From the NCBI GenBank assembly GCA_001507935.1, contig LGET01000078.1:1-7325 (forward strand): a stretch of DNA of 7,325 bases. Reading direction: 5' to 3'. Shown one piece after another: positions 1,258 to 6,004 of this stretch. Position 1 is the first letter of the stretch. Every line of letters starts with the position of its first letter. This stretch comes from Thermococcales archaeon 44_46. Its GTDB lineage: Archaea > Methanobacteriota_B > Thermococci > Thermococcales > Thermococcaceae. Position numbers and translations under genes: made by a program. The notes beneath the pieces were generated by a model. The model saw only the letters and a program-made list of their open reading frames with translations, did not search any database and had not been told where the DNA came from.

Positions 1258-1380
1258 ATGAGGGTAACAATTTACGATGACATCCAAACTATTGGTTGCT
1301 CAAAGATACATGTTCAAGAAGGACTAAAAAAACTATCAAGGGGGCCGTTTCGTGGAGACTTCCGAAGAGAATGTTATTGA
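1258..1380 (+). CDS. 40-residue ORF overlapping the McrC start: leader peptide or McrC N-terminus
   Basis: An ATG at 1258 follows GGGGTG (1247-1252) with a 5-nt spacer, one of the better ribosome sites in the window, and stands downstream of the candidate promoter. It encodes 40 residues beginning MRVTIYDDIQTIGCSKIHVQ and ends with TGA at 1378-1380, overlapping the McrC-like gene by 29 nt in another frame. I recognise no family. Two readings are possible. It may be a short leader whose translation couples to the nuclease gene. Alternatively, it is the true N-terminus of the nuclease: removing one G from the G5 run at 1340-1344 would join LKKLSRG directly to RFVETSEENVIELERG. The fused reading looks natural, so a frameshift or sequencing indel is a serious possibility. 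The last residues (PFRGDFRRECY), which lie mostly over the McrC coding region, look less protein-like. Confidence 0.45.
   Translation: MRVTIYDDIQTIGCSKIHVQEGLKKLSRGPFRGDFRRECY
1339..1344 (+). promoter_or_regulatory. Ribosome binding site AGGGGG for the McrC-like gene
   Basis: AGGGGG ends 7 nt before the GTG at 1352, which is the first possible start after an in-frame TAA at 1325-1327. The match to the anti-Shine-Dalgarno is partial (a G-run rather than GGTGA). The same G5 run is where a single-base indel would fuse this frame to the 40-residue ORF, so its role as a ribosome site is uncertain. Confidence 0.4.
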
Positions 1381-2965
1381 ACTTGAACGTGGATATCACC
1401 TTAAGCCCAAGGTTCAGTCAACGGGTAAAGAAGATGCAGAATTGTGGCTAGACCCAGAGAATGGGACGGTTTATCTTTTTGAGTGGAAGCCATATCTTCT
1501 AATAGGTGATCGAGAATTTATCTTACGCCTTTTTGATAAAAAAATAAAAGCCACGAAAATTACTCCTGAGATTTACATGGCAGAGTTTCAATTCGAGAAC
1601 TATGTAGGTAAGAGTTTCATAGAGATTTATGAAAACGGTCAGCGAACACTCAAAAAGCCTATTGAAGTCCTTTCCACGAAAGTTCGTGAGATCATGAAGA
1701 GAAAGGGTCAGAACATCGTAGATGCTCATAAGAAGTTCTACAACGCTCTCTTTGAAGACATTTTAAGGGTCTCTTCATCTTTACCATTTTCTCTTTCTGC
1801 TCCGACAGCATTTGCAGCAGGAGAAGGAGAGGAACCGGTAAACGAGCTCTTTGCTTATCATTATCTTCGGTCAAATAAAGAACGCATTAAGGAAGCCTTT
1901 AAAACTGTGATAAAAAATGCCAAAAGAAAACTCATCATCGAAGAGGAATGGATTGAGCCCTATGAACTGGATGAGATAACTCCCGACACTATCGTTTCGA
2001 TGATCCAAAACCCACAGTATTTAGCACCAGCGGGAGAAGGTGTATCAGTCGCTCAGCACCTTAATGGCTTTGCTCCAACCAAGGTTTTTGCTTTCAGGAA
2101 GTATGAGAACTTTGACACCCCAGAAAACCGCTTTGCAAAATATTTCCTCGACATGCTGATAGTGTGGGCAGAAAGAGTAATTGAAAGCTTTAGAGAAACT
2201 AAAGGGACAAATATGAACTCTATCCTTGAACTTTATGGAGAGCTTGAGTTTCTCAGAGCAGACCCCATATGGGAAGAAGTGGGGGAAATGACAGTGTTTC
2301 CATACACCTCACAGACCCTCCTCAAAGGTGATGGCTACAGAGACTTACTTGAGCTTTACCGTGAGTTTACGGCTTATGTCCCCTTCTTTGAAAGGCTTTG
2401 GACAGCTATCGAGAACAAAGATATTGCCACACTCTATGAGTACTGGGCATTCTTCAGACTTGTCAAAGAACTTAGTACAATTCTAGGAGAACCGAGATTT
2501 CACATTGGAGTGGACGTCAGTGGCATCCTTTCAGAGGGTCTAAATTCGTATGTATCTTTTGGAAAAGCATGGAGACTTTATTACAACAGGAAATTTCGGT
2601 CCAAGAGTTATTCAGTCCCCGTTAAGCCAGACTTTGCCCTTCTCAAGAACAAAAAGATTGTTGGAGTCTTTGATGCTAAATTTAAAGTCGAGATTCCACC
2701 AATTGAAGAGTTCGCAGATATGGACAAGGACATGGAACGAACCCCAGATCTTCAGACGTGGGCAAAGATCGAGGACATTTACAAGATGCACACTTACAGA
2801 GATGCCCTAAAATGCAGGTTCGCCATTGCAATCTATCTTGGCACTCAAACCAAATTTTTTGATGTTAATAATGGAAAAATTGAGAATATTTCTCTGGATG
2901 AAATTCTCACAGGTCAGATTGCTGGAGTTGGATACCTAAGTTTTGTCCCGGAGGTGAAAAAATGA
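1352..2965 (+). CDS. mcrC: McrC-like restriction nuclease subunit (DUF2357, PD-(D/E)XK)
   Basis: The 537-aa product is the nuclease half of a McrBC-type, modification-dependent restriction system. It is expected to act in the cytoplasm in complex with the NTPase encoded next. Domains: a beta-rich N-terminal part (about 1-110, with LERGYHLKPK and NGTVYLFEWKPYLLI), a long helical middle, and a C-terminal nuclease domain. Family hallmarks are FDTPENRFAKYFLDML at 254-269 and LYEYW at 361-365. The catalytic core reads KPDFALL (Asp427) followed by VFDAKFK (Asp441, Lys443), the PD...(D/E)xK pattern. The helix YKMHTYRDAL (Tyr482) resembles the late conserved helix of McrC nucleases. All catalytic residues appear present. 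The product is longer than classical E. coli McrC (about 350 aa), as is usual for DUF2357 members. GTG 1352 is the first start after the TAA at 1325-1327, but the N-terminus may extend into the 40-residue ORF. The stop overlaps the next ATG (ATGA), which suggests translational coupling. Here the nuclease gene precedes the motor gene, the reverse of E. coli mcrB-mcrC. Confidence 0.82.
   Translation: METSEENVIELERGYHLKPKVQSTGKEDAELWLDPENGTVYLFEWKPYLLIGDREFILRLFDKKIKATKITPEIYMAEFQFENYVGKSFIEIYENGQRTLKKPIEVLSTKVREIMKRKGQNIVDAHKKFYNALFEDILRVSSSLPFSLSAPTAFAAGEGEEPVNELFAYHYLRSNKERIKEAFKTVIKNAKRKLIIEEEWIEPYELDEITPDTIVSMIQNPQYLAPAGEGVSVAQHLNGFAPTKVFAFRKYENFDTPENRFAKYFLDMLIVWAERVIESFRETKGTNMNSILELYGELEFLRADPIWEEVGEMTVFPYTSQTLLKGDGYRDLLELYREFTAYVPFFERLWTAIENKDIATLYEYWAFFRLVKELSTILGEPRFHIGVDVSGILSEGLNSYVSFGKAWRLYYNRKFRSKSYSVPVKPDFALLKNKKIVGVFDAKFKVEIPPIEEFADMDKDMERTPDLQTWAKIEDIYKMHTYRDALKCRFAIAIYLGTQTKFFDVNNGKIENISLDEILTGQIAGVGYLSFVPEVKK
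2950..2957 (+). promoter_or_regulatory. Strong ribosome binding site GGAGGTGA for the McrB-like gene
   Basis: GGAGGTGA is a full match to the archaeal anti-Shine-Dalgarno complement. It lies 4 nt before the ATG at 2962, inside the end of the nuclease gene. It fixes the start of the NTPase gene. It is stronger than the site of the nuclease gene, in keeping with the excess of motor over nuclease subunits in McrBC complexes (hexamers with one McrC). Confidence 0.75.
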
Positions 2966-5448
2966 TTGAGGAGACTGAGCTTAGAGAATTGATTAGAGAA
3001 TACTGCCGCACTGAATTCCAAAAGGCAAAAAAAGAATGGGCTGAGGTAAACATTAATGAATTTAGGAAAATTCTTGATGAAGTTAGATATACTGGCAATT
3101 ATGAGCTTCTAAAACAGGCTATTCGCCGTCTGCATTCTGGTGCCTTTGTCCTCCAATACCATTTTAAATCAATAGCAGATTTGGAGAACCTCTGGCAGAA
3201 TTTCCTCAAGGAGATCGTTGAAACTCGCCCGGAGGAGCTTTTAGAGAACATCGATGAACGTTTTGAAAAGTGGAAAAAGATAAAAGGGGTGGGAAAAGGC
3301 CTTATTTCCGAGGCACTAGCTTTTTATTATCCTAATTATTTTGTTCCTTGGAATAATGTTGTTGACTGGTATTTCCAAGAACTCGGATGGGGAAAGCCCA
3401 CAAAATATTCAGAAGTTCTTTCCCGCCTTAGAGGACTGAGGGAAATTTTTGAAGAAGAGTGTAGTGATGAGAACGTTGATTTCGTGATAGTAGATCACTT
3501 TGGTTGGTGGCTTCAGGTGAAAGTAGCAACGAAAAACTTGTCAAAAAGGCTAGCATCTCTATTAAAAGAACGCAAAATGGCACATAAAGAGGAGTGGATC
3601 TTAAAAGAGAAAGAATTTAGAGAGTACCTTCAGAAGATAAAGGAATTAGCAAAGAAAGGTGACTCCATAACCGAAGAGGAGTTTAAAGAGCTTCTGAATA
3701 CTGTCAACAAGATTCGTGACTTGTTAGACAGGGAGGTATTATGGTTATGGGGAAGTGCAAAGGCTCCAGTTGAGGTTGCACACGAAATATTATCTAGATC
3801 AGATTTTCGAGAACTAATGGAGATTGTGGAAGAAATTAACGACATAAAAGAGATCGAGATAGATCAGGAGATCTTCGAGCGTATTCTCCAAGTAATGAGC
3901 GCTCCCCACACCAAATTGTCCACACTAAGCTCTTGGCTATTTGTTTTTAATCCCAGGGTATTCTTTCCTATCAACAGTTATGTAATGAACGAGGAAGCAC
4001 TTAAGAGATTGGAACTGGATAAGTTCTGGGTCGTTCAAAAATACAACAAAAAGAAACTTAGAAAAGTCACCGAGGAATATCTAAGGTTCCTAAGTGCTTT
4101 GAATATTGCTATTGAGGAGGCTGAGGTCGAGGACATGAGTGAGGCATTGTTTTATTTCACTAAGGGAACAGGACCCAAGGGCAAATCCATTACATTAAAG
4201 CGCTACTTTGATTCACGGGGATACAGTTATCCTCCTCATTTAGTTTCCCAGTTCTACGTTGCATTAAAAACGAAGGGCTTCGTAATCCTCTCAGGCCTAA
4301 CCGGAACCGGGAAGACAAAAATTGCCCAGGAACTGGCTAAGTTACTTGACCCTTCACAAGAAAACTTCCTCTTTTTACCCGTCCGCCCGGATTGGCGTGA
4401 TTCCAAGGCGCTCTTAGGATATTACAACCCGCTGACCGGCGAGTACCCTAGAACCAAGCTCCTCAACTTCATCTTAAAGGCCGTGGAAGACTACCAGAAC
4501 AACGGCGTTAATGCGAAGCCCTACTTTGTCCTCTTAGACGAGATGAACCTAGCTCACGTTGAGTACTACTTTGCCGACTTCCTGAGCGTTTTGGAGAGTG
4601 GAAGAGAAGAAAATGGATTCACGAGGGAAAGCATAAAACTGCACGACAACAGTGAGGTTGAGACATTCGAAGGTATTCCAAGGGAGCTTAAACTCCCACC
4701 TAACCTCTACATCATTGGAACGGTTAACATGGATGAGACTACTTACGCCTTCAGCCCAAAAGTACTTGATAGGGCCTTTGTGGTGGAGTTTCACGACGTC
4801 GACCTCAAGAATTATCCGCCAGGGGAGGACAAAATATCACAAGAAGAACTTGAAAAAATAAGAGAATCCATCCTTAATGACTTAAGAAGGGGTGGAAAAT
4901 TCTTAGCAGTCCGCAAGAAAGGAGAAGACGGCCAAGAAAAAGGTGATATTGAGGAAGCCCTTGAAAAGCTCAAAAATGCCAATAGTGGGAAATACTGGCA
5001 GATACTTCCTAAGCTGAATAAAGTCCTTGAACCCTACGATTTCCACTTCGGCTACCGTGTTGTTGATGAGATTGCACTCTTTTTCGAGAATTCTAAAGAG
5101 AGCCAAAAAAACGGAATCATTGACTTCAGGGGCGAGGATGAAATCTTCGACCTCGCCCTGCTCATGAAAGTCCTCCCCAAGTTCCACGGCAACAGAAAGA
5201 AGCTGGAAAAACCTCTACTCATAGTTTTGAAGTTAGCTAAGGATGGAGAGTTGGAAGGTACTGAATATCAGCTTAAAACTGAAGATCTCTTCAAAATGCT
5301 TTTTGAAGAGGATAAAGCTACAAAGAAACTTGGAGCAGTCGTCGAGAAAATGGGAAACATTGAAGACTACAAGTTTAAACACACTGCCAAGAAAGTCCTC
5401 CGCATGCTCAGGCAGCTCTACGAGATAGGCTTTGCGAGCTTCAGCTAG
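2962..5448 (+). CDS. mcrB: McrB-like AAA+ NTPase with unusual N-terminal specificity region
   Basis: The 828-aa motor and DNA-recognition subunit is the partner of the preceding nuclease. The AAA+ core starts near residue 435. Walker A is GLTGTGKT (445-452). A McrB-like element follows: RPDWRDSKALLGYYNP (475-490). Walker B is FVLLDEMN (Asp526-Glu527). The McrB signature region reads GTVNMDETT (Asn589) where classical McrB has MNTADRS, and LDRAF (Arg604) is a likely arginine-finger position. The C-terminal lid contains FGYRVVDEI (Arg699, a sensor-2 candidate) and LLMKVLPKFHG (733-743). GTP or ATP preference cannot be read. The N-terminal 430 residues are helical and charged, with a coiled-coil-like stretch near 195-255. 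Two related elements occur there: ALAFYYPNYFVPWNN (118-132) and WLFVFNPRVFFPINS (325-339), each P-x-x-F-x-P-x-N. Neither looks like E. coli McrB DUF3578, nor do I see an obvious YTH/EVE pattern as in T. gammatolerans McrB. The N-terminal coding region is far more AT-rich than the core. The reading frame is intact. Confidence 0.88.
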   Translation: MIEETELRELIREYCRTEFQKAKKEWAEVNINEFRKILDEVRYTGNYELLKQAIRRLHSGAFVLQYHFKSIADLENLWQNFLKEIVETRPEELLENIDERFEKWKKIKGVGKGLISEALAFYYPNYFVPWNNVVDWYFQELGWGKPTKYSEVLSRLRGLREIFEEECSDENVDFVIVDHFGWWLQVKVATKNLSKRLASLLKERKMAHKEEWILKEKEFREYLQKIKELAKKGDSITEEEFKELLNTVNKIRDLLDREVLWLWGSAKAPVEVAHEILSRSDFRELMEIVEEINDIKEIEIDQEIFERILQVMSAPHTKLSTLSSWLFVFNPRVFFPINSYVMNEEALKRLELDKFWVVQKYNKKKLRKVTEEYLRFLSALNIAIEEAEVEDMSEALFYFTKGTGPKGKSITLKRYFDSRGYSYPPHLVSQFYVALKTKGFVILSGLTGTGKTKIAQELAKLLDPSQENFLFLPVRPDWRDSKALLGYYNPLTGEYPRTKLLNFILKAVEDYQNNGVNAKPYFVLLDEMNLAHVEYYFADFLSVLESGREENGFTRESIKLHDNSEVETFEGIPRELKLPPNLYIIGTVNMDETTYAFSPKVLDRAFVVEFHDVDLKNYPPGEDKISQEELEKIRESILNDLRRGGKFLAVRKKGEDGQEKGDIEEALEKLKNANSGKYWQILPKLNKVLEPYDFHFGYRVVDEIALFFENSKESQKNGIIDFRGEDEIFDLALLMKVLPKFHGNRKKLEKPLLIVLKLAKDGELEGTEYQLKTEDLFKMLFEEDKATKKLGAVVEKMGNIEDYKFKHTAKKVLRMLRQLYEIGFASFS

Positions 5449-5653: not shown

Positions 5654-6004
5654 ATGAGAAGGCGTAGGAATAGTTCGAATTTCGAACAGAACGAATGGGT
5701 CATGGGACATTTTGGTGATCCCGCGACCCATTATGAGGAAGAAACAAAAGAGCCGTATTTACCAGAAAATATGGAATTATTTATGGAGTTGTTCAGCAGA
5801 GCAATGGGAGCCTTGTTTAGGGAAATTGCAGGTTTTTCTGGTAGCCCCGCGGGGATTCGAACCCCGGTCGCGGGATCCAAAGTCCCGCATGCTTGGCCGC
5901 TACACCACGGGGCTGCGCCCAATCACTACTTTATGGATGCATTTATAAATTTTACTGCAGGAGAACAGCTAGAAGATAATCTCTTCCTCTCCAATGCCCA
6001 ATGA
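5654..6004 (+). CDS. Possible small protein, C-terminus antisense to tRNA-Gln
   Basis: The reading starts MRRRRNSSNF at ATG 5654, with GGTGGCGG just upstream; a GTG at 5642 is an alternative start. It runs 116 residues to TGA at 6002-6004. The first 60 or so residues look like a genuine protein: a basic start, an acidic centre, and an amphipathic helix in NMELFMELFSRAMGALFREI. From about residue 63 (SGSPAGIRTPVAGSK) the frame runs through the antisense of the tRNA gene, which gives a typical artefactual peptide. It then crosses the tRNA promoter and the 3' end of the minus-strand neighbour. So either the gene is real but has lost its original C-terminus at the tRNA boundary, or only the N-terminal part is conserved, or the whole ORF is chance. 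I recognise no family; it has no integrase motifs. Confidence 0.4.
   Translation: MRRRRNSSNFEQNEWVMGHFGDPATHYEEETKEPYLPENMELFMELFSRAMGALFREIAGFSGSPAGIRTPVAGSKVPHAWPLHHGAAPNHYFMDAFINFTAGEQLEDNLFLSNAQ
5839..5914 (-). tRNA. tRNA-Gln (anticodon TTG), CCA encoded
   Basis: Read on the minus strand, the cloverleaf is complete. The acceptor stem AGCCCCG pairs fully with CGGGGCT (7 of 7). The D arm contains GTAGCGGCCAAGC. The anticodon stem CGGGA/TCCCG encloses the loop CTTTGGA, giving anticodon TTG for glutamine. The T arm is CCGGGG-TTCGAAT-CCCCGC. Position 73 is A (base 5842) and CCA is encoded at 5839-5841. There is no intron. The mature length is 76 nt including CCA. No convincing T-run follows immediately on the minus strand; the first TTTT is about 90 nt downstream. 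Confidence 0.97.
5941..5950 (-). promoter_or_regulatory. TATA box of tRNA-Gln
   Basis: ATTTATAAAT (self-complementary) is centred 31 nt before the tRNA 5' end, with an A-rich BRE (GTAAA) upstream on the minus strand. Transcription would begin about 5 nt before the mature 5' end, leaving a short leader for RNase P. This is the best TATA match in the window. Confidence 0.7.

Follow-up and report, generated by a model that had tools for sequence, protein, structure and literature searches.

The 7,325-nucleotide stretch of DNA analysed here (hereafter the window) is contig LGET01000078.1 of Thermococcales archaeon 44_46 (our G000:C168, from a 1.70 Mb assembly of 272 contigs that is 79% complete), and its central feature is an mcrC-mcrB gene pair. 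The genes lie in the order C then B, and the start of mcrB overlaps the stop of mcrC by 4 bases. Judged from sequence, the pair is of the McrBC type, with Walker A, Walker B and an NxD motif in the AAA+ core of McrB, and with DUF2357 and a nuclease domain in the partner McrC. The best match of McrB in the PADLOC defence library was the candidate system PDC-M26A (E 1.1e-48), and the best stretch of this match (residues 412-549) lies within the AAA+ core. Named relatives in the protein search were for the most part Thermococcus and Pyrococcus. The cutting target of McrBC is set by the specificity domain, and the N-terminal region of McrB is the main subject here. An earlier note on this DNA had placed about 430 residues ahead of the AAA+ core; the long N-terminal region stands, but its length is about 410 residues. 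The region comprises two modules, N1 and N2, and the features of the pair are as follows.

1352..2965, + strand: McrC, 537 aa, with DUF2357 and a PD-(D/E)xK nuclease (PF09823, E 1.9e-30; PF04411, E 6.5e-14; both over cut-off)
2630..2680, + strand: McrC nuclease motif D427 ... D441-A-K443, intact in the sequence
2962..5448, + strand: McrB, 828 aa (open reading frame; AAA_5, PF07728, over cut-off)
2962..3531, + strand: module N1 (residues 1-190), predicted HhH-GPD glycosylase-like fold
3250..3327, + strand: helix-hairpin-helix of N1 (residues 97-122, GVG 109-111), from model helices, aligning with the HhH of Ogg/EndoIII
3298..3300, + strand: Gly113, where Ogg/EndoIII have their catalytic Lys (alignment; counts)
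3310..3312, + strand: Glu117, in the position held in M. jannaschii Ogg by the base-stacking His (alignment; E in 22/22 rows of profile A3)
3331..3354, + strand: PNYFVPWN (124-131) in N1, with Asn131 in the catalytic-Asp position (alignment, counts, sequence)
3538..4197, + strand: module N2 (residues 193-412), a homologue of N1
3952..3975, + strand: PRVFFPIN (331-338) in N2, with Asn338 in the catalytic-Asp position (counts, sequence)
4195..5445, + strand: AAA+ (McrB-type) core, residues 412-828 (Pfam match)
4294..4317, + strand: Walker A, GLTGTGKT (445-452) (sequence)
4531..4548, + strand: Walker B, LLDEMN (524-529) (sequence)
4726..4737, + strand: NMDE (589-592), McrB signature in its NxD form (sequence; NxD branch in the available part of PMC11090510)

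The octamer P-x-x-F-x-P-x-N, which the earlier note had reported twice, occurs exactly twice in McrB (124-131 and 331-338), 207 residues apart, and each copy does follow a helix (predicted at 112-122 in N1 and at 319-329 in N2, protein numbering). When residues 1-430 were shuffled 20,000 times, at least one copy appeared in 13 shuffles and two copies in 0. Profiles were built from clean sub-ranges (A1, 8 rows; A2, 13 rows), and deeper ones from 22 N1 rows (A3) and 26 N2 rows (A4), the rows of A3 and A4 being related to one another. With hhalign, A1 and A2 were aligned over most of both halves at 86% (E 4.8e-6), and the deeper profiles at 93.4% (E 2.6e-7, score 50.8). When the window and the four proteins carrying both modules were left out (18 versus 22 rows), the comparison still gave 93.2% and a score of 50.5. 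As controls for the 50.8 of the deeper profiles, the best of 100 column shuffles scored 19.5 and a reversed profile 13.8. In addition, a profile of 13 N1 sequences (A5) detected N2 in the window at 3610-4029 (E 1.9e-5, one genome searched), and the second domain of the relative P0006 is intermediate, being found by the N2 profile at 8e-16 and by a single N1 sequence at 8e-5. By these profile comparisons, N1 and N2 are homologous domains that share more than a common octamer. The N-terminal region is duplicated, as had been proposed, and its halves have a similar predicted fold, as judged for the two models from profiles and from the PDB matches of each.

Both models are all-helical. N1 matches HhH-GPD DNA glycosylases clearly and N2 less clearly, with archaeal Ogg closest among the structure matches. 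HhH-GPD proteins occupy 50/50 of the rows listed for N1, and after realignment Ogg was the best match for N1 and for N2, each taken separately. An HhH-GPD fold is strongly predicted for N1 and moderately for N2. The hairpin is present in N1 (GVG 109-111, flanked in the model by helices 97-104 and 112-122); the corresponding place in the window's N2 reads APHTKLST, without a GxG hairpin. The Pfam family PF21790 (putative 8-oxoguanine DNA glycosylase OGG-like protein) matches the N1-family proteins L103 and L034, and L104 weakly, all below the curated cut-off, and it coincides with the N1 profile within the same protein; the window's McrB gave no match to PF21790. The listed matches, the separate Ogg results and the meeting of PF21790 with the N1 profile all speak against an accidental match due to helical packing, and it is highly improbable that the modules are instead a separate helical fold for oligomerisation or partner binding.

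The new fold suggested in the earlier note is thus rejected for N1 and unlikely for N2, owing to the HhH-GPD matches. The absence of known reader domains was borne out: no DUF3578, YTH or EVE model was found in Pfam at E<=1 for the whole protein or at E<=10 for the N1 and N2 pieces. Neither a confident match to a known McrB reader nor dissimilar folds of the two halves, the outcomes named there as contrary, was obtained. Pfam glycosylase families likewise gave no match to the window's modules at E<=10. In PADLOC, N1 alone matched no model at E<=1 and N2 alone had weak other matches, the best being Cas8a (0.0092), while PHROGs and NCBIfam gave the modules weak chance-level rows at most. Among predicted viral structures (BFVD), 22 matches were listed at E<=10 and none was significant; the top one was a viral DNA-3-methyladenine glycosylase (prob 0.10). 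PF28530 is a precomputed Pfam label on some relatives that is absent from the matches of the scanned library, and it could name one of the modules.

The catalytic residues of M. jannaschii Ogg are Lys129 and Asp147, and its His133 and Trp198 sandwich 8-oxoguanine (available part of PMC5069365). The N1 counterparts in the alignment are G113, N131, E117 and W182, respectively, with a Lys-to-Asp spacing of 18 in both proteins. Across the 22 rows of A3, the Lys position, which is catalytic in bifunctional glycosylases, is G in 17, A in 2 and S in 3, and the Asp position is N in all 22; position 178 is D in 22/22, 182 is W in 19, N in 2 and F in 1, and 183 is W in 22/22. In the N2 rows of A4, the Asp place is D in 0/26; it is H in 14 rows, N in 4, W in 3 and another residue in the rest. 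Because the conserved catalytic Asp is absent, the modules are not filed as glycosylases, and the lack of the canonical catalytic residues suggests that they likely sense altered bases rather than remove them. A D144N MutY-DNA complex in the PDB (4ypr, by title) provides a precedent for DNA binding by an Asp-to-Asn form.

A counter-example is Sis-HhH-GPD, which is active although Ser stands at its Asp position (available part of PMC11754123). It also favours a rival explanation in which N1 or N2 is an active monofunctional glycosylase using another acid, such as Glu117, with McrC cutting near the abasic site. The invariance of Glu117 in A3 fits this rival, as does the part taken in phage defence by the free-standing glycosylase Brig1, of the uracil-DNA-glycosylase superfamily (PMC11078745, in part). 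However, both canonical catalytic positions are altered in all 22 N1 rows, P0104 (outside A3) has Ser in the E117 column, and a nuclease is already provided by McrC, so that we regard an active enzyme as quite unlikely.

The reading that we favour, and hold to be fairly probable, is that the front end of McrB consists of two homologous modules with a predicted HhH-GPD fold and without the canonical Lys/Asp, which likely serve as base-flipping readers and would recruit both motor and McrC nuclease to altered DNA. Modification sensing, already proposed in the earlier note and still something that we infer, is better grounded since HhH-GPD proteins flip a base out of the helix. In such a mechanism, the N1 hairpin would grip DNA and a base would be flipped into the N1 pocket, where the conserved E117 and N131 would replace the His and Asp of Ogg; the base would be held with its glycosidic bond uncut, N2 would read a second base or add grip on the DNA, and the McrB ring would then drive McrC cleavage. 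The first candidate would be an oxidised or otherwise altered purine, because of the Ogg relationship, although two key residues of the Ogg-like pocket are changed; the second would be phage base modifications. HhH motifs are general DNA-binding elements, and the modules might instead bind plain DNA, as a sequence-specific or non-specific clamp that reads no modified base. The lost hairpin of the window's N2 and the variable Asp position of N2 agree with such binding, and LlaJI, a McrB relative, binds site-specifically via a B3 domain (available part of PMC7680126). Nevertheless, the conserved polar residues of N1 map onto base-pocket positions of Ogg, and the other McrB readers named in the available parts of PMC7680126 and PMC7641849 recognise modified bases; plain binding is therefore unlikely, though it deserves some weight.

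The N1-N2 query matched 19/101 relative genomes at E<=0.01. In a phylum scan of 115 genomes at the same threshold, the N1 profile matched 12 and the N2 profile 35, many of the N2 matches being weak. McrC gave 27 matches, or 26 with the distant G083 left out, and adjacency was judged by match coordinates. The adjacent McrB carries N1 and/or N2 for 21/26 McrC copies (N1 8, N2 16, both 3); the copies without adjacent N1 or N2 at E<=0.01 are G000:C111, G004, G026, G028 and G046. N1 and N2 are not obligatory partners, since 18 of the 21 McrBs have a single module. The arrangements are N1-AAA (L009, L011), N2-AAA (L013, L014, L016, L020, L023), N2-AAA in which Walker A is followed by an insertion (L015, L021, L022), N1-other-AAA (L008, L010, L012), other-N2-AAA (L017, L018), N2-other-AAA (L019) and N1-N2-AAA (the window, L002 and the frame-broken L007). 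As read from these gene sequences, relatives share the same AAA+ core while N1 and N2 are swapped on it independently of each other.

N2 also stands ahead of NxxD-type McrBs (L053-L055, GTMNTADRS), and the N1 profile reaches more distant, mostly metagenomic McrBs (e.g. P0085, P0094, P0098 and P0107, of Candidatus Bathyarchaeia). By source name, the cultured carriers include T. zilligii and T. nautili for N1, and T. litoralis, P. yayanosii and P. horikoshii for N2. Scans of viral contigs (A6, McrB, A1) gave pattern matches and no confirmed relative, and tblastn of residues 1-413 found none on plasmids or phages; distant relatives are possible in both cases. The window's genome encodes two further McrBs, L002 (N1-N2-AAA, 70% identity) and L003 (1498-3963, - strand), which has another N-terminus and about 150 residues inserted directly after Walker A; insertions within McrB GTPase domains are on record (Bell et al. 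2024, PMC11090510, in part). L007 (G002), which is closely related to the L002 paralogue, is broken into two frames at a point close to residue 515 in the numbering of the window's McrB.

The spread also bears on whether abasic sites or gross damage are the target of the modules, as they are for Mag2, in a system that mainly polices the cell's own damaged DNA. The N1 matches include Mag2 structures (title 'sculpting of DNA at abasic sites by DNA glycosylase homolog Mag2'). McrBC deletions slow growth in T. kodakarensis despite 5-methylcytosine below detection (available part of PMC13385129), which a damage-sensing role could explain if those McrBs carry N1 or N2. With 21 McrBs across about 100 relatives' genomes, the distribution is patchy and suits defence better than housekeeping, and we consider self-policing very unlikely.

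N1-like domains also occur outside McrB. Nine stand-alone genes in 8 genomes (L104-L110, L114, L115; frames of 272-303 aa) have the GFG hairpin, SEILF/TEILF and Asn at the catalytic-Asp place. By eye, their neighbours include ADP-ribosylglycohydrolase-like genes (L107, L114) and a small KKTIEYA protein (L107, L109). In L105, a 218-aa minus-strand frame, by eye a DNA-repair-glycosylase-like HhH protein (KGIGKVTVYHYLTDLGFEVMKPDRTILR), lies beside stand-alone N1-like and TPR genes. The TPR gene occurs in 12 copies in 10/101 genomes. In 5 of these 10 (G006, G038, G044, G048, G055) a copy and a stand-alone N1-like gene are no more than 5 kb apart, and in G000:C168 and G028 a copy adjoins McrC; the TPR gene is possibly a partner of glycosylase-like defence genes. 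L034 (1417-2568, + strand) and L103 combine an N1-like domain with what is by eye a C-terminal restriction-nuclease-like pattern (RVDVVW...E-V/I-H), and they may be single-chain restriction enzymes with the same kind of reader. A broader and more tentative idea, possible yet short of probable, is that DNA glycosylases have given rise to non-cutting sensors for restriction. In this view, a family of pseudo-glycosylase modules that moves between archaeal McrBs and is also joined to other nucleases might flip and read a base that is oxidised, alkylated or hyper-modified. The window's McrBC would then respond to DNA that is damaged or phage-modified, and tandem copies would check two bases, or both strands, ahead of commitment by the motor.

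Within the window, the TPR gene lies upstream of McrC (1-501, + strand), followed by a 173-aa open reading frame (521-1042, + strand) without a Pfam match over cut-off. A tRNA-Gln (TTG) gene is located about 390 bases downstream of McrB (5839-5914, - strand); tRNA genes often sit at island borders.

The McrB readers named in the available parts of PMC11090510, PMC7680126 and PMC7641849 are DUF3578/ADAM, YTH, EVE, DCD and B3, and they recognise methylated or hydroxymethylated cytosine, N6-methyladenine or a plain site. Among the papers listed, a literature search found none joining McrB with an HhH-GPD or OGG-like reader, although a mention in supplementary files is possible. If our reading is true, N1 and N2 would add a new type of sensor to the McrBC defence family. 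A glycosylase-derived reader in which the base pocket retains its place but the scissors are gone would connect base-excision repair with restriction and suggest new target bases, and it would supply a small thermostable domain for binding tests.

As far as the available descriptions go, the window's pair resembles the McrBC systems of E. coli and T. gammatolerans in its AAA+ McrB with an N-terminal specificity region and its McrC with DUF2357 and PD-(D/E)xK; it differs in having two glycosylase-like modules in place of DUF3578 or YTH, in the order C-B, and in NxD instead of NxxD. After realignment, the solved folds nearest to N1 and N2 are those of archaeal 8-oxoguanine DNA glycosylases of the Ogg2 family (3knt, 3fhg). 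The parts of N1 that align with them are the HhH, the segment leading up to the Asp and the C-terminal D...W stretch, whereas N1 has Gly for Lys, Asn for Asp and Glu for the base-stacking His, and is fused to a motor. The EVE, YTH and DCD readers are PUA-like beta-barrels, unlike N1 and N2, which are all-helical in the models. Like N1 and N2, however, these readers are swappable McrB modules thought to read modified bases (PMC7641849, in part). The available part of Bell et al. 2024 (PMC11090510) states that none of the NxD McrBs is characterised; the domains named there include EVE, ADAM/DUF3578, YTH, Hsp70, HEAT, cold-shock and coiled-coil, and the word 'glycosylase' has 0 occurrences in the main text. 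The window's McrB is like this NxD branch of McrB GTPases in having NxD followed by E (NMDE), and it has the NxD motif in common with the CoCoNuTs, which according to the same source are nearly absent in archaea.
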